64,000 nt of DNA, from the NCBI RefSeq assembly GCF_008831545.1, contig NZ_CP044523.1, positions 248,001 to 312,000 on the forward strand. Reading direction: 5' to 3'. Made by a program: the position numbers and the translations under genes. This DNA is from Halorussus halophilus (GTDB lineage Archaea > Halobacteriota > Halobacteria > Halobacteriales > Haladaptataceae). Position 1 is the stretch's first letter; every line of letters begins with the position of its first letter. The notes beneath the pieces were generated by a model. The model made no database searches, was not told the origin of the DNA, and was given only the letters and a program-made list of their open reading frames with translations. Shown piece by piece: positions 4,987 to 39,610 of the stretch.

Positions 4987-6201
4987 TCACGCAGTCGCGA
5001 CTCTAACCGAGACGTTGCCCTCGCTCCCCGAAACTCGCGTCTGCTCGACGATTCGCTCGCTCCCGATTACCACGACAACCGTCTCGTTGCTGACTCGCTG
5101 GAGTCCGAACTGCTCGCCGTCTGTCTGCCAGCGGTTCTCGCCGATGCGCTCGCTGCGGGCGTCCATGTAGTCTGCGAACGCTCGTTGGAACTCGGTCGCG
5201 TTCTGTTGGTCGTCCCACCGGAGTGCCCAGACGAAGTTGCGCTGGTCGGATTCGTTCGCGCCGTGGTTCCAGAGCGTGACCATGCGGTCGTTGCCCCAGC
5301 CTTCGGCGGCAGTCGCGGCCCGCGATTCGGAGAGGTCTCCGCCGAGTACGTCGCGGACGAACAGTTCGCCGGTCGTGTCAGTCTGGCCTGCGCTTACGGT
5401 TTCGGTCTCCCGTACCGAGACGCGCAGGGTCGCCGGAGGTTCATTCTCTGGGCCGTAGTTGTGTATCAGCTGTTCGGTCGTCTCCGGCGGGTTGCGGTAG
5501 ACTGCGGTCAGATTCGCGGGGGAGTCGAGTCGCTTCTCGAAGTACCTGCCACCGAACAGATACGGCCCGCGGACGTACCGACCGAGCGCGGAGCCAGCGC
5601 GATAGTCACCTCGCATCTCCTCTATTTGTCCCGGCCCTGTGAGGTAGCGTTCGCCGTAGGTGTCGGCGACGTACACCGCGCTCCCTTCGACCATCGCTCG
5701 GGAGACCGCCGCGGAGTCTGTCGTTCCACCTCGTAAGTCCATCGCATCTCGGTAGCGCTCGCTGGTGAGCGTCACCGCGTGGGCGTACTCGTGGGCGAGG
5801 ATGGCTTCTAACTCCGGGAGATTCTGCGCGCCTGCTGGCACGCCGTCGTGGAGGATGACCGTGACTCGGTGTGCGCCCTGCCCGTAGTAGGCCGCGGGCG
5901 CACCCTCCTTCGAGTCGTCGGCGTCGAGGAGCAACCGATGGAACGGTCCGGCCCGCCCGCCGAGATAACTGACTTGGTTTCCACTGGCGCTCGTCGTCTG
6001 CAACGAGGGCTGTGAGACGTTGCTGTCTAACAGCGTCGCTACTCGGTCGTAGATACGGCTCTCGTTCGTCGGCAGCGAGTCCGGCCCTTCGTCCGGCGTC
6101 CGTGTTTGGAGCGTGGAGTTCTCCGTAGTCGGACCGGCCATCGGGGCCGTACAGCCCGAAAGCACGAGTAGACCCGCGAACAGGACGACGACGCGACGCA
6201 T
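4987..6201 (-). CDS. Surface lipoprotein with HExxH motif (Hvo_1808-like)
   Basis: A 404-residue exported protein with a hydrophobic leader ending in a lipobox-like LSGC at 14-17, so it is probably lipid-anchored on the cell surface. LAHEYAHAV places H137, E138 and H141 as a gluzincin-type zinc site, suggesting metallopeptidase activity. The remainder is acidic and Ser/Thr-rich at the N-terminus. It resembles what is annotated in haloarchaea as Hvo_1808 family surface protein. The substrate is unknown. It sits 39 bp beyond the end of the PP-loop gene, same strand. Confidence 0.65.
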   Translation of the reverse strand: MRRVVVLFAGLLVLSGCTAPMAGPTTENSTLQTRTPDEGPDSLPTNESRIYDRVATLLDSNVSQPSLQTTSASGNQVSYLGGRAGPFHRLLLDADDSKEGAPAAYYGQGAHRVTVILHDGVPAGAQNLPELEAILAHEYAHAVTLTSERYRDAMDLRGGTTDSAAVSRAMVEGSAVYVADTYGERYLTGPGQIEEMRGDYRAGSALGRYVRGPYLFGGRYFEKRLDSPANLTAVYRNPPETTEQLIHNYGPENEPPATLRVSVRETETVSAGQTDTTGELFVRDVLGGDLSESRAATAAEGWGNDRMVTLWNHGANESDQRNFVWALRWDDQQNATEFQRAFADYMDARSERIGENRWQTDGEQFGLQRVSNETVVVVIGSERIVEQTRVSGSEGNVSVRVATA

Positions 6202-6240
6202 GCGCCGATAGAGGAGTGGTCCGGTAAAAGTGTCTGTGGA

Positions 6241-6831
6241 TTAATTCAATCCTGTCACGTACGTCTGCGTGTGGTCCGGGAACACGTCCGCGACTGCCTC
6301 TTCGCCGTGTTCGCGGCGCAGAATCGCCCGGAGCTCGTCTTCGTAGTCGGCCTTCGGTATCTCTTCGCTCGGCCCCGTAGTGACCGAGAGCGTCTGTTCG
6401 ACGACTCTATCGACCGCGCCGCGGCCGAATCCCGAGAGCGGGACGATGTAATCGACGTCGTGGCGGTCCTCCAGACTCTGGGCCTGCGCCCGAGAGATGG
6501 AGGGTACCCGGTCGTCCCGGCGCGTGCCGTCCGCAATCGCGTCGAAGTCCATCTCTGCGACCATCTCTAGGGCGTGCTGGTGGACGTGTTGGATCCCGTT
6601 TCGCGGGTAGCCGTCTTCGACCATTTCGGCGACGGCTTCCTCGGCGACCGCGGTCTCCAACTCGACGGTCTCGAAGTCGAATCCCGTCTTCTCCGCCGTC
6701 TCGCGGGCGTACTCCCACGCGTCGGTGACCCCGAAGCTAGCGGTGACGAGCGTGACTTCGTAGAAGTCGTCGAGCAGGAGGGCGGCCAGCGTCGAGTCTT
6801 TCCCGCCGCTGTAGAGGAGTCCCAGTTCCAT
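6241..6831 (-). CDS. PP-loop ATP pyrophosphatase-type protein
   Basis: The 196-residue protein opens with a PP-loop signature SGGKDS at residues 8-13, the adenylating ATP-pyrophosphatase fold seen in tRNA-modifying and asparagine-synthase-like enzymes. A later DGTRRDDRVPSIS stretch is also family-like. The substrate is not evident, and no zinc or rhodanese domain is attached. It is separated by one base from the upstream PDCD5 gene, so the two are almost certainly co-transcribed. Confidence 0.75.
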   Translation of the reverse strand: MELGLLYSGGKDSTLAALLLDDFYEVTLVTASFGVTDAWEYARETAEKTGFDFETVELETAVAEEAVAEMVEDGYPRNGIQHVHQHALEMVAEMDFDAIADGTRRDDRVPSISRAQAQSLEDRHDVDYIVPLSGFGRGAVDRVVEQTLSVTTGPSEEIPKADYEDELRAILRREHGEEAVADVFPDHTQTYVTGLN

Positions 6832-6832
6832 C

Positions 6833-7174
6833 TCAGCGACGGCGGATGTTGAAGCTCTTCGAATCGGGCTTCAGTTCGCGGAGGAGTTCCTTCATCTTCT
6901 CTTCGTCTATCTTGCCGTTGACGCGGCCACTCTGGGCGACGGCGAGGACTTGCTGTTCGACCTTCTCGGCGAAGTCCGGCTTGCTCATGCGCACCGAGTT
7001 GAGTCGCTTGCGCGCGCCGTCGGTGAGGTACTGACGAAGCATCGCCTGCTTCTGGGCGTCGGCTTGCTGTTGGGCGGCCTCTTGGGCCTCTTGCTGTTCG
7101 CCTTGCTCCTGCATCTCCTGCATCTTCTGCTTGCGAAGTTCTTCGAGTCGTTCGTCGTCGGGGCTGTCGGACAT
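6833..7174 (-). CDS. PDCD5/TFAR19-family DNA-binding protein
   Basis: A 113-residue protein with a long Gln/Glu-rich N-terminal helix, a compact helical core ([21 protein letters not shown] at about 46-66, shown here as a landmark of the family) and a basic C-terminus. Archaeal PDCD5 homologues bind DNA and are usually encoded close to ribosomal protein S19e, as here, where only a DsbA-like gene intervenes. It is directly followed by the PP-loop gene. Confidence 0.9.
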
Positions 7175-28908: not shown

Positions 28909-30123
28909 TTACCCCAACAAGTCCGCCGCCGCTTCCGTCACGATTTCGGTCACCTCGACCACTTCGTCGGTGTAGACGAACTCGCCCGCGCCGTGGATGT
29001 TCTCGCCGTCCGGGCCGATAATTACTGTCGGCAACCCTGCGCGGTCGCCGAGATAGTTGAAGTCGCCGACGCTGGCGAAGTAGCCGAGTGCAGGTTCGAC
29101 GCCCGCGACTGAGCGGGTCGCTTGCTGTAGTGCCCCCACGAGTTCGTGGTCCTCGTCGGTGACGTAGGGACCGTACTTGATGCCGGGGTCCGGAGCCTCC
29201 CGGAAGTTGATTTCGACCTCGCTATCGAGATTCAGGTCAGCGACTACCTGTTCGGCGTCGGCACGCACGTCTGCTTCTGTCTCCCCGAGGACGACGTGGC
29301 GGTCCACCATCAGGCGGGCGCGCTCTGGCACCGAGAGCGTCTGACTCCCGCTGTCGAGCATGAGCGGGCAAATCGAGCCGTCGCCCAACTTCTCGTGGCT
29401 CCCGACTTCGATTTCCGTGAGTGCCTCTGCGAGTCGTCCGGCGTCCACGAGCGCGCTGGTGCCCTTGTGCGGTTGTGACCCGTGAGCGGCCTTCCCCTTG
29501 ACCGTGAAGTCGTACAGATACCGGCCGCGTGCCCCGAGCAGGAGCGCAGGATTCTCGATGTCCTCTTGAGCGAGAATCGGCCCCGGTTCGGTGACGATTG
29601 CCATGTCGCAGTCGTCGGTCAGGCCGTCCCGAATCAATCGGTCGGTGCCGAGGCCGTAGGGGCCCTCTTCATCGACTACGGCAGTGAGGAGCACGTCACC
29701 AGCCAGTTCCTGCTCCGACTCGGCGAGCGTCTTGAACGCCATCATCACGGCCGCCAAGCCGCCCTTCATGTCGCAGGAGCCTTGCCCGTACAGTTTACCG
29801 TCTTCGATGCGACCCGAGCAAGGATCTTCCTCCCAGTCTTCGACCAGTTTCACCGTGTCCATGTGGGCGTTCAGCAGTAACGTCGGCGCTTCCGGGTCGG
29901 TCCCCTCCAACCGTGCGATTACGTTGTCGCCCTCGTACTCCGTAATCTCTGGCTCGCTGACGTGGTGGTACTCCGGTTCTAAGTCGTAATTATCGAGCCA
30001 ATCGTAGACGAACTCCGCGAGGTCGTGTTCCTCGAAGTACGGACTCGGGATGCGGACCATCTCTCCCAAGAGGTCGATGGTCTCCTCGGCGTCTACGTCA
30101 AACTGACGCTCCTCGTCAGTCAT
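28909..30123 (-). CDS. M20 family deacylase/peptidase (ArgE/DapE type)
   Basis: The 404-residue metal-dependent amidohydrolase has zinc ligands H87 (NAHMDT), D118 (GSCDMKGG), the catalytic and ligand glutamates E152/E153 (DEEGPYG), and a later HGSQPHKG in the dimerisation lid. These enzymes deacylate N-acyl amino acids or cut dipeptides. Its first 8 nt overlap the end of the upstream amino-acid permease gene, so they form one translation-coupled operon. Uptake followed by deacylation of an N-acyl amino acid is the natural reading. Confidence 0.87.
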   Translation of the reverse strand: MTDEERQFDVDAEETIDLLGEMVRIPSPYFEEHDLAEFVYDWLDNYDLEPEYHHVSEPEITEYEGDNVIARLEGTDPEAPTLLLNAHMDTVKLVEDWEEDPCSGRIEDGKLYGQGSCDMKGGLAAVMMAFKTLAESEQELAGDVLLTAVVDEEGPYGLGTDRLIRDGLTDDCDMAIVTEPGPILAQEDIENPALLLGARGRYLYDFTVKGKAAHGSQPHKGTSALVDAGRLAEALTEIEVGSHEKLGDGSICPLMLDSGSQTLSVPERARLMVDRHVVLGETEADVRADAEQVVADLNLDSEVEINFREAPDPGIKYGPYVTDEDHELVGALQQATRSVAGVEPALGYFASVGDFNYLGDRAGLPTVIIGPDGENIHGAGEFVYTDEVVEVTEIVTEAAADLLG

Positions 30124-31555
30124 CGCTCACACCCCCCATCGCGGGGTCTTCGTCGGCGCTCACCCCGCCAGTAGTTCGGTTCTGGTCGCGCTCCTCGGAG
30201 GAGACACCCGGGAGGGTGTCGAGAATCGCTTCCACGTCGGTGTCGCGCTGCTTGCCGAGGTACCAGTAGATGCCGAAGACGACCAGTCCCACTGCGAGCC
30301 ACGGAACGTAAATCGTGAGAGACCCCTTGTATGCCTCCGTGAGCAGGCCGACGGCACCAAGAACGCCGACGATTCCCGTAATCGGGGTCAGCCAGCCGAA
30401 GTCGAAGCCTGCCTGTTCGACGAGGTCAGGTCGGGAGAGCCGAGCGTACAGCAGAGTACCGGAGACCGACGCGTAGGCGATGAGGTAGCTGAACGTGGCG
30501 ATGGCGAGCGCCTGATTCAGTCCCGAACTCCAGAATGTGAGTCCGGCGGCGACGACGTACAGCGTCGCAAGCGACCAGTGAGGCGTGCCGAAGCGGTCGC
30601 TCACTTCCGAGAACTTCTGGGGGAACACTTCGTCCCACGACCACGAGTAGGGCATCTTGATTCCGGCGGCCATGACTGCGTGGACGCTCGACGCGGTTGC
30701 GAGCATGCCACCGAACGCGACGACGCTGATTCCAGCGTCACCCAAGAACGCCTGCGCGGCCGTTGCGAGCGGCCGGGCCGAGTCCGCCAGCACCGTGTAG
30801 TCGGCGACGACGCCGTAGATAACCGCGGCGGTCCAGACGTAGAGGACGATGAGGACCAAGGTACCGCCCGCCATCGCCAGCGGCAGGTTCCGCTCGGGGT
30901 TCTTCACTTCCGCGCCCATCTGCCCGGCGACGGCGATGCCGATGTAGGCGTAGAACAGCGGGACGGCGGCCCCGACGAACCCATCGAACCCGCCCGTGAA
31001 GAACGGCTGGTAGTTCGCCGGGTCTACGTTGAAACTCCCGGGAATGACGAGGACGAGAATCGAGAGGATGAGGAAGCCGAAGATGGCGTTCTGCGAGAGA
31101 CTGTACCCCTTCGTGCCGACGAGGTTGACCAGAAAGAGGACGGTCAGCAAGGCGAACCCCGCGATTGTCGCGTCCACCGAGGGGTAGAACACTTGGAGAT
31201 AACTGCCGAAGCCGATGGCCAGCACGGCGTCTGCGGCCATGTAGCCGAGCCACTTCGACCACGTGACGAGAAAGCCCGGCAGGCGACTGTCGAACGTCCG
31301 GGAGACGTAGGCGTACGACCCCGCGGCGGCCGGGAAGATGGTCGCCATCCAACTGTAGTTGATGGCGATGCTCATAGCCAGTATTCCCGACAGAATCACT
31401 ACGAGGATGACGCTCGGACCGGTGGTCGCGCTTGCGGTCCCCAAGGTCACGAACAGACCTGCTCCGAGTGTTCCTGCGACGACGGTACTCATCGCACCGA
31501 GTGCGCCCATGTCACGCGAAAGACTGCGGTCGTCCTTCGACTGTGTGGATGACAT
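30116..31555 (-). CDS. APC family amino-acid permease
   Basis: A 479-residue membrane protein with 12 predicted helices. The family start motif GTLGAGLFVTLG in helix 1 matches the substrate-binding G-A/S-G turn of the APC superfamily. The C-terminal 45 residues are charged and cytoplasmic. It lies directly upstream of, and overlaps, the M20 deacylase gene. An amino acid or N-acyl amino acid is the likely substrate; neither is proven by sequence. Confidence 0.88.
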   Translation of the reverse strand: MSSTQSKDDRSLSRDMGALGAMSTVVAGTLGAGLFVTLGTASATTGPSVILVVILSGILAMSIAINYSWMATIFPAAAGSYAYVSRTFDSRLPGFLVTWSKWLGYMAADAVLAIGFGSYLQVFYPSVDATIAGFALLTVLFLVNLVGTKGYSLSQNAIFGFLILSILVLVIPGSFNVDPANYQPFFTGGFDGFVGAAVPLFYAYIGIAVAGQMGAEVKNPERNLPLAMAGGTLVLIVLYVWTAAVIYGVVADYTVLADSARPLATAAQAFLGDAGISVVAFGGMLATASSVHAVMAAGIKMPYSWSWDEVFPQKFSEVSDRFGTPHWSLATLYVVAAGLTFWSSGLNQALAIATFSYLIAYASVSGTLLYARLSRPDLVEQAGFDFGWLTPITGIVGVLGAVGLLTEAYKGSLTIYVPWLAVGLVVFGIYWYLGKQRDTDVEAILDTLPGVSSEERDQNRTTGGVSADEDPAMGGVSDD

Positions 31556-31668
31556 GCATTGTCATAGGGGTGAGGGAGGGTATCAACCCCGTCCCTAGAA
31601 TGAGAGGCGGATAGCCGAAACGGGGTTTTCGACCGGTTCTCGGCCGAGAAAAATAGAGTTCAGCGGTC

Positions 31669-32367
31669 TTACGATCCGCCGAGTAACTTCACTTCCGCTT
31701 TCCGGAGATGTTCGAGAAGCGTCGCTTTCGAGATGCCGACTTCGTCGGCGAGTTCGGCCGCCGACACCTCGCGGGGCCACGTGTAGTAGCCGTTCTGGCG
31801 CGCGAGTTCGAACACCTCCCGCTGTCTGGTCGAGAGGTCGTCGTCGTTGAAGATGCCGCTGCCCGCCGCGGGCGCGGTCAGTAGGTCTACGTCGATTTCG
31901 GCGTTCATCTCCTCGCGGATTTCGTCGAGTCGCTCGAACGCCGCCTCGCGGTCTTCGTCCACGATGACCGTCCAGTATTCGCGGCCGCCGTGCATTCTAA
32001 CCGGTTCGTCGGGGATGAACCCCCGCGAGACGAGCGCGTCGTTGATGCTGTTTTTCAACTCGTACTTGACGACGATGCCCCGATTCGCACTCCCGGGAAC
32101 CACTGCGTCGGCGTCGGTGACGTGTGGACTGTCGGTCTCCCAGACAGACCGAGTCAGGTTCGACTCCCGGATTGCCGCCACGAGTCGGTCTACCGCCTCG
32201 ACGGTGTCGCCGTAGGCGGTGAATCGACCCGTCGCCAACCCCTCGATGGTGTGGACGCCGTGGCCGAGCAGGCCTCCTGCCGTGCGTTCTGTCACCTCCA
32301 GCGTCCAGCAGTTCGGATGCCAGATGTCGAGTGTCAGGCGTAACCCCCGTTCGTCACTGTGTGACAT
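31669..32367 (-). CDS. Bacterio-opsin-activator-type HTH regulator
   Basis: The 232-residue transcription factor has an N-terminal ligand or protein-interaction region and a C-terminal HTH_10 (Bat-type) domain at about 177-230, with LSTRQREVFELARQNGYY and the helix-turn-helix SAAELADEVGISKATLLEHL. It is divergent from dgcN across 73 bp and sits 113 bp upstream of the APC-M20 operon, so it probably controls one or both. Confidence 0.85.
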   Translation of the reverse strand: MSHSDERGLRLTLDIWHPNCWTLEVTERTAGGLLGHGVHTIEGLATGRFTAYGDTVEAVDRLVAAIRESNLTRSVWETDSPHVTDADAVVPGSANRGIVVKYELKNSINDALVSRGFIPDEPVRMHGGREYWTVIVDEDREAAFERLDEIREEMNAEIDVDLLTAPAAGSGIFNDDDLSTRQREVFELARQNGYYTWPREVSAAELADEVGISKATLLEHLRKAEVKLLGGS

Positions 32368-32395
32368 ACCCTTCGACTAAACCGATGGACGCTCA

Positions 32396-32408
32396 CAGTA
32401 AATAACTG
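32396..32408 (+). promoter_or_regulatory. Palindromic TATA-region element between the HTH regulator and dgcN
   Basis: CAGTAAATAACTG has inverted ends CAGT/ACTG around AAATA and lies 33-45 bp before the dgcN ATG. It could serve as TATA box and operator together in this divergent promoter. Confidence 0.4.
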
Positions 32409-32440
32409 TCTCTCTCCCTCTCATAGTTGGGAGGGTAGCT

Positions 32441-33511
32441 ATGCGCTTGCGGTCACCTTCACCAGAAGTGAACCTCCACGACGCGTTCGACGCGCCAGCG
32501 CCCGCCGTCGTCCTCGCCGAAGGGAAGTTCGGCACTCCCGAGGGGAAGACGGCCAACGGCGTAGTGATGCACAGCGAACTGTTCGACTCGCAAGCAGTCG
32601 TCGATTCGACCGCCGCCGGGCAGTCTGCGAGCGACGTTCTGAACCGCGACGACGTACCGGACGTACCGGTCGTTGCCTCGGTCGAAGACGCGCTCGAAGC
32701 CGCACCCAACGCAGAAGCGCTCGTCATCGGTGTCGCGCCCGCGGGCGGCAAACTTCCCGAGGAGTGGGTCGAAGACATCAAAGAAGCCATGCGTGCAGGC
32801 TGTGACGTGGTGTCTGGTCTCCACACGTTCCTCTCGGCCGACTGCCAGTGGGCAGACATCGCCGACGAGTTCGGCGTCCAACTGTTCGACGTGCGAAAGC
32901 CGCCCGAAGGAGACGACGTGCGCGTGGGGGACGGCCGAGTTGACGACGTAGACGCCGACGTGATTCTCACGCTCGGGACCGACTGTGCGGTCGGCAAGCG
33001 AACGACTGCCTTCGAACTGTACCGTGCGGCACGCGACGCAGGACTGGACGCCGGATGGGTGGCGACCGGTCAGACTGGTCTCATGGTCGGCGCGCACCGG
33101 GGCGTCGTCATCGACCGCGTTCCGGCGGACTTCACAGCAGGCGTCGTCGAAGACCTCGTCTGCGACGTGGCGGCGGACCACGATTTCGTCGTCGTGGAAG
33201 GCCAAGCCGCACTGACTCACCGGGCGTACTCGGGCGTGACGCTCTCGCTTCTCCACGGGGCGAATCCCGACGCAGTGGTGCTCGTGGACGACCCCAATCG
33301 GACTGGTCGGGCGGACTTCGAACGGTTCTCTGTGGCAGGGGTCGAGGCAGAAATCGAAGCTATCGGGGCACTCTCGGACGCGACTGTCGCCGCACTCTCG
33401 ACGTGGGGCGACGGCGAGACGGAAGCGGAGAAACACGGGCTTCCGGCGGCGAACGTCTACGACGAAGACGGGCCGTCAGAGTTGTTAGAAGCAGTCCGAG
33501 AGTCGCTGTAG
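32441..33511 (+). CDS. dgcN: DUF1611 family protein, DgcN-like N-acetyltransferase
   Basis: The 356-residue protein has an N-terminal Rossmann-like half and a C-terminal P-loop half with GTDCAVGKRT at 179-188 and VVEGQAALTH near 255, the DUF1611 pattern. Members named DgcN transfer acetyl to D-glutamate in a D-glutamate catabolic route, usually with a racemase (DgcA) next door. Here no DgcA gene follows; the next gene is engB on the other strand. An M20 deacylase, permease and regulator lie just upstream. Confidence 0.75.
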   Translation: MRLRSPSPEVNLHDAFDAPAPAVVLAEGKFGTPEGKTANGVVMHSELFDSQAVVDSTAAGQSASDVLNRDDVPDVPVVASVEDALEAAPNAEALVIGVAPAGGKLPEEWVEDIKEAMRAGCDVVSGLHTFLSADCQWADIADEFGVQLFDVRKPPEGDDVRVGDGRVDDVDADVILTLGTDCAVGKRTTAFELYRAARDAGLDAGWVATGQTGLMVGAHRGVVIDRVPADFTAGVVEDLVCDVAADHDFVVVEGQAALTHRAYSGVTLSLLHGANPDAVVLVDDPNRTGRADFERFSVAGVEAEIEAIGALSDATVAALSTWGDGETEAEKHGLPAANVYDEDGPSELLEAVRESL

Positions 33512-34757: not shown

Positions 34758-36083
34758 ATGCGGTTCGTGCAGGTCTCGATACCGGCGGGCAAGCGAGAAG
34801 CGGTTGCCGACGTCCTCGACTCCGAGGGCGTCGATTACATGATGACTGACGAGACCAGTGGTCGGGAGTACACCGCCATCGCGTACTTCCCCCTTCCGAC
34901 GAACGCCGTCCAGCCAATTCTGGACAAACTGGACGACGCGGGCGTCGGCGACGAGACCCATGCCATCATCATCGACGCCGAGACCGACACTTCACGGAAG
35001 TTCGAAGAACTGGAGAAACGCTACGCCGAAGAGAACGGCGATACCGAGCGCATCGCCCGCGAGGAAATTCGGACCAGAGCACGCGAGATGTCGCCCGAAC
35101 TGCCGACGTTCGTGGCGATGACCATCATCAGCGCAGTCGTGGCCACGGCGGGTCTTCTCCTCGACTCACCGGCCGTGGTCGTCGGGTCCATGGTCATCGC
35201 GCCGCTCATCGGTCCAGCCATGGGTGCGAGCGTCGGGACCGTGCTGGGAGACCGCGACCTCTTTCGAGAGGGCGTCAAACTCCAGATTATCGGCGGCCTC
35301 ACCGCCGTCGGGAGCGCCACGCTGTTCGCGTTGGGGGTGCGATACGGCTATCTCGTCCCGCCGGGGATGAACGTCACCGAAATTTCCCAAGTCAGTGGCC
35401 GACTCTCGCCGGACTTCCTCTCGCTCGTCGTCGCCCTCGGTGCGGGTGCGGCCGGAATCTTGAGTCTCGCGTCCGGCGTTTCGGTCGCGCTCGTGGGCGT
35501 CATGATTGCGGCGGCGCTCGTCCCACCCGCCGCGGCCGTCGGCATCGCTATCGCGTGGGGGGAACCCCTCGCAGCGTTTAGCTCGGCGGTCCTCGTGCTG
35601 GTGAACCTGCTCTCCATCAACCTCGCGGGCCTTCTAGTCCTCTGGTATCTCGGCTACCGACCGAAGACGTGGTTCGACTTGAAGGAGACCCGCTCGCTGT
35701 TGTACAAGCGTGTGGGCGTCTTGCTCGTCGCCCTCGCGGTGCTGTCGGTATTCCTCGGCGGCGTGACCTACACGACGATTCAGTCGGCCGGATTCCAGAA
35801 TCAAGCGCAGGAGGACATCCGGACGACGGTCGAGGGAACTGGGAACGCGTCGCTGCTCGACACCCAGTTCGAAACAGGCGGAACGTTACCGTTCACGCGA
35901 CCGGAGAGAGTCGTCGTCACGGTCGGCCACCCACCGGGCGAGAGCTATCCGGGGTTGGCCGAGCGAATCAGCGAGCGCGTCAACGACGCGAACGGGCGTC
36001 GCGTGGAGGTGCAAGTTCGATACGTAGAGTACGAGCGGATACCGGGCGAAGACGAGAGTAGTCCGTGGCCCGATTGGCTCTGA
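34758..36083 (+). CDS. DUF389 / TIGR00341 membrane protein, paralogue 1
   Basis: The 441-residue protein has a cytosolic ferredoxin-like N-terminal domain (MRFVQVSIPAGKREAVADVL, then VDYMMTDETSGREYTA) and about seven transmembrane helices with the family motif SPAVVVGSMVIAPLIGP near 135-152. A small extracytoplasmic domain at about 345-435 closes the protein. The role is unknown. Two more paralogues follow at 36920 (minus) and 38243 (plus), a rare clustering. Confidence 0.88.
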   Translation: MRFVQVSIPAGKREAVADVLDSEGVDYMMTDETSGREYTAIAYFPLPTNAVQPILDKLDDAGVGDETHAIIIDAETDTSRKFEELEKRYAEENGDTERIAREEIRTRAREMSPELPTFVAMTIISAVVATAGLLLDSPAVVVGSMVIAPLIGPAMGASVGTVLGDRDLFREGVKLQIIGGLTAVGSATLFALGVRYGYLVPPGMNVTEISQVSGRLSPDFLSLVVALGAGAAGILSLASGVSVALVGVMIAAALVPPAAAVGIAIAWGEPLAAFSSAVLVLVNLLSINLAGLLVLWYLGYRPKTWFDLKETRSLLYKRVGVLLVALAVLSVFLGGVTYTTIQSAGFQNQAQEDIRTTVEGTGNASLLDTQFETGGTLPFTRPERVVVTVGHPPGESYPGLAERISERVNDANGRRVEVQVRYVEYERIPGEDESSPWPDWL

Positions 36084-36130
36084 AACGCAGATTACTCCGC
36101 CGCCATGAGTAAAGCCGCCATTTGACTCTA

Positions 36131-36146
36131 CGGGAACTATATCCCG
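36131..36146 (+). promoter_or_regulatory. TATA box inside an inverted repeat, upstream of the SIMPL gene
   Basis: CGGGA (36131-36135) and TCCCG (36142-36146) flank ACTATA. The TATA centre is about 29 bp before the ATG at 36169. A regulator binding the palindrome would block TBP. Confidence 0.45.
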
Positions 36147-36168
36147 GTTACCGTCGTAGCAGTGTTCG

Positions 36169-36918
36169 ATGCACAGGGGAATACTCGCAACGCTGGGAGT
36201 CGTCTTGCTCGTTGTCACCGCTGGGTGCGCTGGGAGCCTGAATCCGACCGACTCGGCGAACGCACAGGTGCAGAATTCGACGGACGGTCAGTCGATCAGC
36301 GTCGCGTCGAGCGGACAGGCCGAGGCGACGCCGGACCAAGCCATCCTCCGGGTCGCAGTCGTCGCGGAGGGTGACGACGCCAACGCAGTCCGTCAGCAAC
36401 TCGCGCAGAACGTCTCGCAGATGCGCTCTGCGCTCGCGGACGCGAACGTCACCGACGACGACATCCGGACCGTCGCGTTCAACATCGACCAGCAGTACGA
36501 CCACACCGAGAAGGGCCGCGAACCGACCGGATTCCGGGGCATCCACGCCTTCGAAATCACGCTCTCGAACGCCGACCGCGTGGGCCAGATAATCGACGTG
36601 GCCGTCTCGAACGGCGCGAACCGGGTCGATAGCGTCGAGTTGACGCTCTCCGAGGACCGCCGCCGCGAAGTGCGCTCTGCCGCGCTCCGCGACGCGATGA
36701 GCAACGCCCGCGCCAACGCAGATGTCATCGCCGAGGAAGCCAACCTCACCATCACGAACGTCCACAGTGCCTCGACTGGCGACCTGTCGTTCAGTCCAGT
36801 TCGGGCGACTGTCGCCGAGGCCACGACGGCGGGCGGTGACGCCGCCACCAACATCGAATCTGGGCCAGTCACCGTGGTCGCACAGGTGCAGGTGGTCTAC
36901 AACGCCAGCAGTAGCTAG
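36169..36918 (+). CDS. SIMPL-domain (DUF541) lipoprotein
   Basis: A 249-residue exported protein with a signal helix and lipobox-like TAGC at residues 17-20. A SIMPL/BP26-type domain fills the rest, with SVASSGQAEATPDQA, VSQMRSAL and FEITLSNADRVGQIID as landmarks. BP26-like proteins form surface oligomers; their function in archaea is unknown. It ends 1 bp before the stop of the convergent second DUF389 gene, between two DUF389 genes. Confidence 0.85.
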   Translation: MHRGILATLGVVLLVVTAGCAGSLNPTDSANAQVQNSTDGQSISVASSGQAEATPDQAILRVAVVAEGDDANAVRQQLAQNVSQMRSALADANVTDDDIRTVAFNIDQQYDHTEKGREPTGFRGIHAFEITLSNADRVGQIIDVAVSNGANRVDSVELTLSEDRRREVRSAALRDAMSNARANADVIAEEANLTITNVHSASTGDLSFSPVRATVAEATTAGGDAATNIESGPVTVVAQVQVVYNASSS

Positions 36919-36919
36919 T

Positions 36920-38206
36920 TCAACTATTCGCCCGCTGGCGCTCCACGAACTGCACTTCGACCGTGATGCGCTGGTCGTACTCCCGGTCTAATCGCTCGGC
37001 GATAGTCGAAGCTAACTCGGGATACCGAACGTCGGCGGGACGACTCACCTGAACGGTTATCTGCTGGGTCGGTTCGAAGACGCCGCGGTCGTTGAAATCT
37101 GTCTCGACGCTCTCCAGTTCGAGTTGATTGTAGCGACTCTGTTCGAGGACGTCCTGCACTTCGCGATTGGCCGTGTTTTCGAAGGCCATCTGTTGAGACA
37201 TGGCGAAGCCAGCACCCGCAGTGACAGTTAGCACGAGACCGGCGAGCGCGACTTTCTTCGCGAATCCCATAGAGCCGTTCGATTCGTCGGGCGACTGGTG
37301 GCTTCTGTAGCCGAGCAGGCGCAGTGTTGCGATGCCGACGAGGTTGATGGCCAGCGCGTTCACGACCAGCAGACTCGCCGCACCGAGCGCGACGACGGGG
37401 TTTCCGGCTGCCAGTCCGATGCCGACGGCCGCGGCGGCCGGGATGATCGCCGCCGCAATCATGACGCCGACCAGCGAAACGGGGAGTGCCGTCGCCAACC
37501 CGAACGCCCCAGCCGCGCCCGCCGCAATCGCCACCGCGAGCGAGAGCAGTCCGGGCGAAGCGCGCTTCCCGATTTGACTGACGGTCGTCACGTCTAACGC
37601 GGGCGGCACGAACGCCGCCGCGCGGAGAAAGCCGCTGAACACGAGCGCGCCGACGACGGCGAGAAAGAGGCCGTACACCTGCGCGCCGATGCCGTCTTTT
37701 GCCATCTTTCGGTCGCCTAGCACGACGCCGACGCTGGCGGTCAGCGCCGACCCGACTTGGGGCGCGATGACCATGGACCCGACGACGATGGCCGGTGAGT
37801 TCAACAGGAGACCCGCGGTAGCCACCACCGCCGACAGTAGCGTCATCGAGTAGTAGGTCTTCGCGTCGGGCGTCATGTCCAGCGCCTTCGCCCGAATCTC
37901 TTCGTGGGCGATTCTGTCGTCGTCTTCGCCACCCGCGACGAAGCGCGCTTCTAAGTCGCTGAAATTTTGCGTACGAGCGGACTCGGCTGTGCCGACGACC
38001 GTGTAGCGGTCCTCCTCCAACCCGGCCTCTCGCAAGGTCGAAAGCACCTCTTCGACGGCCTGCGTGGGGAGTGGAAATCGAACGACTGCAGCGTCTTCAC
38101 GCCCGCTCGTCTCGTCTGTGAGTACGTAGTCGATGTTCTCCTCGTGGAGTACGTTCAAGACTGCGTCTTGGTGTTCGTCCAACACGAGGACTTCGATGTG
38201 CCGCAT
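36920..38206 (-). CDS. DUF389 / TIGR00341 membrane protein, paralogue 2
   Basis: The 428-residue protein has the same layout as paralogue 1: a soluble domain (MRHIEVLVLDEHQDAVLNVL, DYVLTDETSGRED), about seven helices with SPAIVVGSMVIAPQVG, and an external C-terminal domain. It reads away from paralogue 3, whose ATG is only 36 bp away, so the two share one divergent promoter. The ATG at 38206 is chosen; longer starts would run into paralogue 3. Confidence 0.88.
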   Translation of the reverse strand: MRHIEVLVLDEHQDAVLNVLHEENIDYVLTDETSGREDAAVVRFPLPTQAVEEVLSTLREAGLEEDRYTVVGTAESARTQNFSDLEARFVAGGEDDDRIAHEEIRAKALDMTPDAKTYYSMTLLSAVVATAGLLLNSPAIVVGSMVIAPQVGSALTASVGVVLGDRKMAKDGIGAQVYGLFLAVVGALVFSGFLRAAAFVPPALDVTTVSQIGKRASPGLLSLAVAIAAGAAGAFGLATALPVSLVGVMIAAAIIPAAAAVGIGLAAGNPVVALGAASLLVVNALAINLVGIATLRLLGYRSHQSPDESNGSMGFAKKVALAGLVLTVTAGAGFAMSQQMAFENTANREVQDVLEQSRYNQLELESVETDFNDRGVFEPTQQITVQVSRPADVRYPELASTIAERLDREYDQRITVEVQFVERQRANS

Positions 38207-38242
38207 TCGACCCGGACGACTCACCCTGAGGTGAAGGGTCTT

Positions 38243-39610
38243 ATGAACGAGAGCGCGCCGGTTGCCATCGGCGGCCTGAACGCTTTTGCACCACCGAATC
38301 GTGGCACGTTCGTGCGACTCGTTCACGTCTCCGTCCCACAGGAGCAGCGCGGTCCCATCGTTCACGTCCTCTCCGAGAACGACGTTACGTACGTCGTGTT
38401 GAACGACGACGGCGACTCGTTGCTCCTCGAATTCCCGCTCCCGGCCGACGCCTCCGGCGAGATGCTCGACGCGCTCCACGACGCCGGACTCGACGAGGAC
38501 GCCTACACGGTGGTTGGCACCGTCGAAACTGCGACGACGCCGACCATCGAGACCCTGATGGACCGCTACGCCGGGACGTACGACCCGCTTCCGTTGCCGG
38601 AACTGCGCTCGAAAGCCCGCGACCTGAGCCGCGACCCGCTCTCGTACGTCGGTCTCGTCTTTCTCGCGGCCGTTATCGCGGCCGCCGGGTTGCTGGTGGA
38701 GTCCCCTGCCGTGGTCGTCGGCTCTATGGTCATCGCGCCCTTCGTCGGCCCGGTACTGACCGCCAGCGTCGGCGTCGTCTCCGGCGACGGGGCGATGGTT
38801 CGAGAGAGCGTTCGCTTGCAGGTCGTCGGACTCATCGTGGCGATTCTCGGCGCGGCACTGTTCGCGGCGTTCGTCCGCGTGCTGAACTTCGTCCCGCCGA
38901 GTCTCACGATTACCACTATCGACCTCGTCAGCAGTCGGGCCGCACCGAGCTTTCTGACGATTGCGGTCGGTATCGCGGCGGGCGCGGCCGCGGCGTTCGG
39001 TATGACGACGAAGGGACCGACCTCGCTCATCGGCGTGATGATAGCCGCGGCACTCGTCCCGGCGGCCGCGGTGGTCGGCATCGCACTCGTCTGGGAACGA
39101 CCGGTCGTCGCGGCCGGGTCGCTCGTCGTCGTCACCGCGACGTTCCTGGCCATCAACGCCGCGGTGTACACCACCTTGCGACTACTCGGGTATCGACGGT
39201 CACGCGTCGCGTGGGGGTCGAACAGCGAAGGTCTCCCGTCGCTCGGCGCGACTCCGAGGCGCTCCGCAATCGGTCTCGCACTCGCGCTGGTCGTCGTCGC
39301 CGCAACTGTCGGGGCGGCCTACGGAACGTACCAGCAAGCGACGTTCGAGCGCGAAGCGAATCGAGCGGTCGAAGACGTACTCTCGCAACCAGCCTACGCA
39401 GACCTCTCGCTGGTGACGGTGCGCTCGGGGTACGCTGGCCCCGTTCTCGGGCGAGGAAAAACGACAGTGACTGTCGTCGTGCAAGCACCGCGGGGACAGT
39501 CGTACGCCGGATTCGCACAGACGATTCGAGAACGCATCGTGGCTCGAACCGGTCGAGACCCAGCAGTTCGCGTGCGGTTCGTCGGTGTGCAGCACGCTGG
39601 AGAAACGTAA
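38243..39610 (+). CDS. DUF389 / TIGR00341 membrane protein, paralogue 3
   Basis: The 455-residue protein is the most divergent of the three. The ATG at 38243 gives a 20-residue extension before the conserved VRLVHVSVPQEQRGPIVHVL. The soluble domain has YVVLNDDGDS in place of the TDETSG motif of the other two, so its ligand site may differ. The helix motif SPAVVVGSMVIAPFVGP and the external domain are retained. Confidence 0.88.
   Translation: MNESAPVAIGGLNAFAPPNRGTFVRLVHVSVPQEQRGPIVHVLSENDVTYVVLNDDGDSLLLEFPLPADASGEMLDALHDAGLDEDAYTVVGTVETATTPTIETLMDRYAGTYDPLPLPELRSKARDLSRDPLSYVGLVFLAAVIAAAGLLVESPAVVVGSMVIAPFVGPVLTASVGVVSGDGAMVRESVRLQVVGLIVAILGAALFAAFVRVLNFVPPSLTITTIDLVSSRAAPSFLTIAVGIAAGAAAAFGMTTKGPTSLIGVMIAAALVPAAAVVGIALVWERPVVAAGSLVVVTATFLAINAAVYTTLRLLGYRRSRVAWGSNSEGLPSLGATPRRSAIGLALALVVVAATVGAAYGTYQQATFEREANRAVEDVLSQPAYADLSLVTVRSGYAGPVLGRGKTTVTVVVQAPRGQSYAGFAQTIRERIVARTGRDPAVRVRFVGVQHAGET

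Follow-up and report, generated by a model that had tools for sequence, protein, structure and literature searches.

A putative HTH_10 regulon for D-amino-acid use at a Halorussus halophilus locus that lacks an adjacent racemase

Introduction

How could a locus with a DgcN-like gene serve D-amino-acid use when no racemase lies beside that gene? The question is raised by positions 28909–33511 of a 64,000-nt stretch of the Halorussus halophilus genome (contig NZ_CP044523.1, positions 248,001–312,000; hereafter the window). The locus comprises an APC-family amino-acid permease gene and an M20 deacylase gene in one operon, an HTH_10 regulator gene, and a divergent gene for a DUF1611 protein. The original prediction named the DUF1611 protein DgcN, a D-glutamate N-acetyltransferase, reported its racemase partner DgcA as missing, and noted that the M20 enzyme could remove the acetyl group from N-acetyl-L-glutamate, a rewired D-amino-acid or N-acyl-amino-acid pathway being plausible. 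Yu et al. reportedly described the DgcN-DgcA route of D-glutamate catabolism in ISME J in 2023. Short descriptions of the route are given in PMC12363236, and the enzyme names appear in PMC11747546.

Our analysis finds the prediction right in outline, with one gene over-named and the missing racemase over-read. The best account is that the locus probably belongs to an HTH_10 regulon for D-amino acids, with the racemase step moved out of this locus. New here is a 16-bp palindrome that, judged by sequence, is shared by the promoters of the DUF1611 and APC genes and renders the idea of a regulon testable. Below, G labels denote genomes and L labels fetched loci; G000 is the window organism, and the window lies on its contig C1.

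Results

A palindromic element precedes both transcription units

Both promoters of the locus, that of DUF1611 and that of APC-M20, have a 16-bp palindrome close to CCCTCTCATGAGAGGG, with the core nCCnnnYATRnnAGGn, which we spotted by eye in divergent spacers. The APC-M20 copy, GCCTCTCATTCTAGGG (31593..31608, minus strand), is positioned 53 nt upstream of the APC ATG, and the DUF1611 copy, CCCTCTCATAGTTGGG (32416..32431, no strand assigned), is positioned 52 nt upstream of a GTG at 32468. This GTG is probably the DUF1611 start, rather than the ATG at 32441 chosen in the original prediction, because it aligns with the ATG of relatives and lies at the commonest spacing from the palindrome.

We collected 85 DUF1611 genes and kept 70 distinct ones, 66 of the branch to which the window gene belongs (B-type) and four of a DgcN-like branch (A-type). 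Of the 60 B-type genes with sites of at least 9 matches, 59 have the 5′ end of the element 51–57 nt ahead of the start codon, 52 nt being the commonest spacing. At least 10 of the 16 letters are found within 48–60 nt of the start in 56 of the 66 B-type genes, compared with 90 of 5000 random windows from the same loci. The same score is reached before 29 of 30 APC genes, mostly at 51 or 53 nt and in stand-alone units too, the site of L107 being doubtful; APC starts were placed at a conserved upstream ATG, and the APC genes took no part in making the consensus.

To compare gene classes, we required at least 10/16 at a spacing of 50–57 nt and let the start vary equally among allowed positions in every class; 56/66 DUF1611-B genes and 29/30 APC genes pass. 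The element is found before epimerase genes in 0/53 cases, M20 in 1/30, HTH_10 in 3/53, EngB in 0/12, 2-hydroxyacid dehydrogenase in 0/10, A-type DgcN in 0/4, S9 peptidase in 0/7, and DUF389 in 3/19. As for the three HTH_10 cases, divergent HTH_10 genes share the spacer that holds the DUF1611 element. A site upstream of HTH_10 in stand-alone units was considered and dropped, as its scores of 8–11 equal background; the element of these units lies upstream of APC instead.

A stricter test covered 1526 genes called by script in the fetched loci, with repeats removed. The 56 genes that pass are 27 DUF1611 genes, 21 APC genes, five genes of a 405-residue protein described below, one HTH_10 gene (a divergent partner), one class III aminotransferase gene, and one alanine-dehydrogenase-like gene (323 bits to the archaeal model, cut-off 409). 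In L104 (5635–9087), the order is HTH_10, class III aminotransferase, M20, and the aminotransferase gene has the element where the APC gene has one elsewhere. By their predicted products, the element-bearing genes are a coherent set of transporters and amino-acid enzymes, and the putatively co-regulated set probably takes up and processes amino acids.

In the window genome, a strict form of the pattern, CCYNNYCATNNNWGGG, matches five times. Two of these matches are the two B-type DUF1611 promoters, one in the window and the other before a DUF1611-epimerase operon on plasmid C2; nothing notable was found near two extra ones. Among the 27 unexplained sites of a loose pattern, seven have a frame of at least 60 codons starting 46–61 nt on, and one of these (L147) has an ATG and more than 200 codons. 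No title or abstract opening on such a regulon appears among the open-literature matches listed for D-amino acids, peptidoglycan, and haloarchaea, and the mentions of DUF1611 found there stand under titles on other subjects.

The DUF1611 protein belongs to a second haloarchaeal type

The DUF1611 gene (32468..33511, plus strand) encodes a P-loop protein and putative N-acyltransferase with both domains of the family (PF07755 and PF17396; DUF1611_N and DUF1611_C). It scores 194.4 bits to the DgcN model NF041892, for which the cut-off is 480, so the name DgcN was an over-call. By the curated model, the protein is not DgcN, and its sequence places it in a haloarchaeal paralogous group, the B-type, distinct from the commoner, DgcN-like A-type. 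The A-type protein of the same genome also falls below the DgcN cut-off (263 bits), and a Sinorhizobium plasmid DgcN exceeds it (496 bits). The closest solved sequence is 2g0t (221 bits); 7xrj scores 135.

Three DUF1611 genes are present in the window genome. Across the order, 221 of 243 genomes have a DUF1611 match, and the B-type (63–100% identity) accounts for at least 62 matches in at least 49 of them. Forty-three positions are common to the four A-type proteins, three DgcN-like bacterial proteins, and at least 97% of the 66 B-type proteins, including those whose genes have no adjacent epimerase gene (solo). A comparison of solo with paired proteins found just five weak positions that separate them.

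HTH_10, APC, and M20 form a conserved unit

The APC gene (30116..31555, minus strand; PF13520) is the first gene of its operon and overlaps the second, the M20 gene (28909..30123, minus strand; PF01546 and PF07687), by 8 nt. An ATG occupies the overlap position in 26 of 30 APC-M20 loci, a few of which are one genome fetched twice, indicating that the overlap is not due to chance. The regulator gene (31669..32367, minus strand) encodes an HTH_10 (Bat-type HTH) protein (PF04967, 67.4 bits). Coordinates and Pfam domains thus bear out the predicted overlap, the Bat-type HTH regulator, and the divergent DUF1611 gene. The best NCBIfam match of the APC protein is TIGR00909, with 187 bits (cut-off 557). 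The M20 protein reaches 219.4 bits to TIGR01910, above the cut-off of 217.6 for ArgE/DapE-family deacylases, and has the motifs HMD, CDM, DEEG, TEPG, and IHG, which we take to form the metal site.

In the 243 order genomes, M20 orthologs occur in 28 and APC orthologs in 28, together in 29 genomes. In 14 of these 29, the unit has a DUF1611 gene nearby, which is of B-type in 12 (G105 without M20) and part of an A-type DgcN-DgcA pair in two; by our own arithmetic, chance would place about 0.3 of the 29 units within 10 kb of such a gene. The conserved unit is HTH_10-APC-M20, and it also occurs on its own or next to A-type DgcN-DgcA. The M20 gene is present at loci that keep the epimerase gene (L018, L021, L051, and L056) as well as beside A-type DgcN-DgcA (L098 and L102), so that a replacement of the racemase by M20 is not supported. 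To judge from these neighbourhoods, M20 is likely a deacylase of such pathways, yet with a use outside them.

The AlphaFold2 model of the regulator has a mean predicted local distance difference test score (pLDDT) of 80.9. We read its N-terminal part, before the HTH, as two ferredoxin-like (beta-alpha-beta-beta-alpha-beta) domains in the model. This part best aligns with 5m86, Thermoplasma Ta1207 (Z score 11.0, 144 residues, root-mean-square deviation 3.4, 10% identity). An identification as ACT domains was dropped, since the folds listed do not settle it, and the regulator has no Pfam match to PAS or GAF at E values up to 0.001.

The epimerase gene is absent at the locus and present elsewhere

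No epimerase gene lies next to the window DUF1611. A local remnant of a racemase gene was considered and dropped, as just 24 nt separate the DUF1611 stop from the neighbouring gene, which ends there on the opposite strand and encodes a GTPase that we take to be EngB-like. The epimerase gene follows DUF1611 directly in 52 of the 66 distinct B-type loci, and the remaining 14 are solo. On the DUF1611 tree, whose backbone is poorly resolved, at least seven changes occurred between the paired and solo states. The window gene lies within a clade of six solo genes of its genus (support 100/98), and HTH_10, APC, and M20 adjoin DUF1611 in all six loci. Besides the window organism, the solo state is thus shared by the five other members of that clade, and it recurs in two genomes of another family (L078 and L083), where M20-APC-HTH_10 stand divergent from DUF1611 without epimerase. 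The whole set, M20-APC-HTH_10 divergent from DUF1611-epimerase, is present in Halorarius halobius (L018), and in a different gene order in Haladaptatus (L021, L051, L056, and L063).

Haladaptatus also has a second kind of solo locus, in which the gene of a 405-residue protein stands between HTH_10 and DUF1611. The protein is membrane-like by eye and has no Pfam or NCBIfam match; its gene lies beside DUF1611 in six loci (L012, at 5693–6910, L013, L038, L048, L068, and L069) and has the element in five. In five related solo genomes DUF1611 is followed by a flavoprotein gene, assigned by eye to the thioredoxin-reductase kind; the one that was scanned has PF07992. As this gene is absent from the window, it was rejected as a replacement at the epimerase site.

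In the window clade, the ratio of nonsynonymous to synonymous substitution rates (dN/dS) of the solo genes is 0.12–0.20 (NG86, 15 pairs), compared with 0.14–0.29 in paired copies (10 comparisons). Because dN/dS is low and the 43 shared positions are intact, the solo DUF1611 of this clade looks functional and appears to be under purifying selection.

The statement that the racemase is missing holds for the locus, as for seven other genomes, and fails for the genome as a whole, which has 11 matches to the enolase superfamily (MR_MLE). The search for a DgcA homologue elsewhere in the genome succeeded to the extent that two of the 11 lie directly behind the other two DUF1611 genes, an A-type pair at C1:647k and a B-type pair at C2:165k; neither of the two exceeds the DgcA cut-off. 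The A-type partner has DgcA (NF042940) as its best model, with 251.8 bits (cut-off 400). The best model of the C2 B-type partner is the Thermotoga L-Ala-D/L-Glu epimerase, with 259 bits (cut-off 500), DgcA scoring 162. The B-type epimerase of Halorarius likewise stays below the NF042940 cut-off of 400 (181 bits).

A B-type epimerase of at least 66% identity is present in 9 of 18 genomes of the genus. In G002, where the solo copy is the only B-type DUF1611 gene, a lone B-type epimerase gene lies on a different contig, between homologues of alcohol dehydrogenase and aldo-keto reductase. Homologues of these same two genes lie directly upstream of the C2 cluster in the window organism. Such epimerase genes elsewhere are compatible with supply in trans and do not prove it. 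On contig C1 of G002, the solo locus is duplicated near both contig ends (L035 and L036) in nearly identical form, with the HTH_10 gene split in one copy and the M20 gene shorter in the other; this is probably an assembly overlap.

A probable neutral substrate, judged from the partner epimerases

At the position that aligns with Arg24 of E. coli L-Ala-D/L-Glu epimerase, all five A-type epimerases have Arg, and 52 of 54 B-type epimerases have Leu. The catalytic Lys, the metal ligands, and the DxD motif are kept in both types. Among NCBIfam models the B-type matches that of the Thermotoga epimerase best, and among solved sequences this epimerase ranks second after the uncharacterised 3u9i and 3s5s; passages in PMC3605383 and PMC13338154 describe it as accepting hydrophobic residues. 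D-glutamate is doubtful as the B-type substrate, because the B-type epimerases lack the Arg that the A-type keeps. The exchange of Arg for Leu, the likeness to the Thermotoga epimerase, and the alanine-dehydrogenase relative among the element-bearing genes together favour a neutral D-amino acid.

A murein-peptide-like cluster on C2

The other B-type pair of the window organism is part of a cluster on C2 (G000:C2:164–182k; L031 6292–17001 and L154 1–7472) that is murein-peptide-like, in an archaeon. The cluster contains genes for an NlpC/P60 protein with SH3_16, DUF1611, epimerase, HTH_10, S9 peptidase, PBP4 (219 bits, cut-off 107.8), a Dpp transporter, a solute-binding protein, LysA, M42, and a beta-lactamase-like protein (beta-lactamase2 family). 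The core NlpC/P60-DUF1611-epimerase-HTH_10-S9-PBP4 is repeated in G008, G010, G011, and G014. The C2 HTH_10 protein is 36% identical to that of the window.

Of 29 further element sites in the window genome, a single one has the proper spacing (51 nt) to the ATG of a long gene, which encodes a LysA-type diaminopimelate decarboxylase (331 bits, cut-off 297.9). This gene lies on C2, some 15 kb away from the promoter that precedes DUF1611 in the cluster; its site has the core and just 9/16 consensus letters. In G059, a LysA homologue beside a solo DUF1611 has a site at 51 nt with 10/16.

D-amino-acid enzymes recur around the family. D-aminoacylase genes lie within about 8 kb of 12 of the 66 B-type loci and also in the plasmid record L119; L120 has an annotated membrane dipeptidase, and L077 has a match to one. 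Between D-aminoacylase and DUF1611, nine loci (L052, L054, L059, L060, L062, L064, L074, L075, and L077) have a second, divergent enolase-superfamily gene, and DxD is absent in 9 of 10 members of this class. On Phaeobacter, Aliiroseovarius, and Vibrio parahaemolyticus plasmids (L116, L123, and L124), DUF1611 overlaps by four bases a racemase gene of the pyridoxal-phosphate type (alanine/ornithine-racemase family or alanine racemase). No racemase is listed beside DUF1611 on V. coralliilyticus and Streptomyces plasmids, and two Sinorhizobium plasmids (L115, above the DgcN cut-off, and L121) have dgcN and no DgcA-like gene within the 4 to 5 kb fetched per side. Across these bacterial plasmid and haloarchaeal neighbourhoods, a racemase or epimerase is a frequent partner of this DUF1611 branch.

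Discussion

In our proposal, an HTH_10 regulon serves the use of D-amino acids, the locus forms one arm of it, and racemisation takes place in trans. The HTH_10 protein would bind the palindrome before both divergent units and turn on APC-M20 and DUF1611. The APC permease would import an amino acid or its acyl derivative, and the B-type DUF1611 protein, a DgcN homologue, would put an acyl group, probably acetyl, on a D-amino acid; this substrate is probably D-alanine or some other neutral D-amino acid and not D-glutamate. The N-acyl-D form would be converted to the N-acyl-L form by an enolase-superfamily epimerase, and M20 would take the acyl group off. In the Halorussus lineage the epimerase gene beside DUF1611 would have been lost and its function replaced in trans, by the epimerase of the paralogous C2 operon or by an A-type DgcA-like enzyme. 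Taken with all its steps, this scheme is tentative, and we give it close to an even chance. The sequences themselves show the gene content and its conservation, the common element with its spacing, the solo clade, and the further epimerase genes; the catalytic steps, regulator binding, the substrate, and trans-complementation are inferred. The wider suggestion of a D-amino-acid or N-acyl-amino-acid pathway has gained ground: B-type genes neighbour epimerases, D-aminoacylase, a murein-type cluster, amino-acid transporters, and M20, and APC-M20 and DUF1611 have the promoter element in common.

Several observations weigh against the proposal. The consensus was made by eye from 13 loci that also entered the later counts, and genomes that are related do not give independent observations. 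When APC starts were taken as first assigned, some of them wrongly, just 4 of 30 APC genes scored at least 10. The strict pattern has 5 matches in the 4.45-Mb genome and 15 in its reversed control, and the loose pattern has 31 sites and 65, respectively, so that neither is enriched. The element alone was therefore rejected as a genome-wide predictor, and only the site plus its spacing was used. In 15 of the 29 genomes (G162 without APC), the stretch fetched around the HTH_10-APC-M20 unit has no DUF1611 gene, and three solo genes (L070, L071, and L080) have no element scoring at least 10 near the start and no M20 or APC nearby. Five of the 14 solo genomes (G007, G114, G146, G191, and G237) have A-type or more distant epimerases only, and a sixth, G059, has a B-type epimerase at 49% identity. 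A DgcA-like gene in a solo genome says little, the A-type being common: by our count, a match of A-type strength (E below 1e-70) is present in 49 of 59 relatives. We therefore do not use the presence of DgcA elsewhere as proof of cooperation. The lone epimerase gene of G002 lacks the promoter element. Finally, the DxD motif of dipeptide epimerases holds the free amino group, and its presence in both epimerase types fits a dipeptide better than an N-acetyl substrate.

A D-glutamate pathway in the strict sense, with a true DgcN, no racemase, and M20 acting directly on N-acetyl-glutamate, would agree with the DUF1611 domains and family-invariant residues, with the ArgE/DapE-like M20, and with the two genomes in which the unit lies beside A-type DgcN-DgcA. 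We judge it quite improbable, as the DUF1611 protein falls under the DgcN cut-off, the partner epimerases differ from the A-type in model and in residue (Leu in 52/54 against Arg in all 5), epimerases are present in the genome, and M20 is found alongside epimerase too; a D-glutamate-specific DgcN, as first proposed, is thus disfavoured. Alternatively, the locus might serve murein-peptide scavenging, the C2 cluster converting cell-wall D-amino acids or dipeptides and the window DUF1611 with APC-M20 being the chromosomal branch. The C2 gene content (NlpC/P60, PBP4, Dpp, epimerase, and LysA), the repeated core in four other genomes, the element and spacing common to both DUF1611-B promoters and the LysA gene, and the LysA homologue of G059 all fit this reading. 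It is nevertheless unlikely: APC-M20 also stands alone with no such cluster in the fetched stretch, a shared element does not prove a single regulator, the two HTH_10 proteins are distant, and the LysA site matches the consensus poorly.

The solo gene might also work without a racemase, DUF1611-B acylating an amino acid that is to be stored, detoxified, or exported and M20 reversing the step. The five solo genomes without a B-type epimerase, a solo state that is common to a clade and appears to be under selection, and the two Sinorhizobium plasmids without a nearby DgcA-like gene would suit such a role, which we consider improbable given that 52 of 66 B-type genes are paired and that supply in trans is possible through a further DgcA-like gene of the solo genomes checked. 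The solo gene might instead be decaying after the rest of its operon was lost, which would fit the recurrent loss of the neighbour and the three solo genes without the element. For the window clade, decay is contradicted by purifying selection (dN/dS 0.12–0.20), and the intact residues and the retained promoter element also speak against it; we regard it as very improbable.

The proposed D-amino-acid regulon resembles DgcN-DgcA in that the window DUF1611 belongs to the same two-domain family, an enolase-superfamily epimerase is its usual neighbour, and release of the L-amino acid requires a hydrolase. Unlike in DgcN-DgcA, the window protein is under the DgcN cut-off, its partner appears to have been lost locally, the usual B-type partner is nearer to the Thermotoga dipeptide-epimerase model than to DgcA, and APC and M20 share the DUF1611 promoter element. 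The C2 cluster is reminiscent of YkfABCD-type murein-peptide recycling in Bacillus in joining NlpC/P60 with SH3_16, a dipeptide-type epimerase, and Dpp genes; it differs in being archaeal and in having DUF1611, PBP4, S9, LysA, and HTH_10, and the window locus itself lacks murein enzymes. The third comparison is Bat, presumably an HTH_10-family member with PAS/GAF sensory domains, whose bop element we take to have CC and GG at the same spacing as the palindrome. Passages in PMC1447603 and PMC3184054 describe the Bat-controlled bop regulon of Halobacterium, with an upstream element at bop and with crtB1 and brp. The two systems have in common an HTH_10 regulator and an element upstream of several target promoters; the central bases and the targets differ, and two putative ferredoxin-like domains stand at the N-terminus in place of the PAS/GAF domains of Bat.

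In a broader form of the proposal, haloarchaea would own a dispersed HTH_10 regulon for bacterial cell-wall D-amino acids and peptides, marked by the 16-bp palindrome about 52 nt before the start codon, with an acylate-epimerise-deacylate relay spread across replicons and a DUF1611-B specific for neutral substrates. Haloarchaea have no peptidoglycan. This form has an appreciable chance, although we think it rather unlikely as a whole. If the proposal is right, the haloarchaeal annotation 'DgcN' would split into one type that is D-glutamate-like and another that uses a different substrate, the HTH_10 family would gain, besides Bat/bop, a second candidate regulon with a defined promoter element, and archaea feeding on bacterial cell-wall parts would come into view.

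Farther along the window, at 34758–39610, three related membrane proteins, presumably DUF389-like, are encoded around one further gene, presumably SIMPL-like, and this arrangement is repeated in Halorussus and Haladaptatus relatives.

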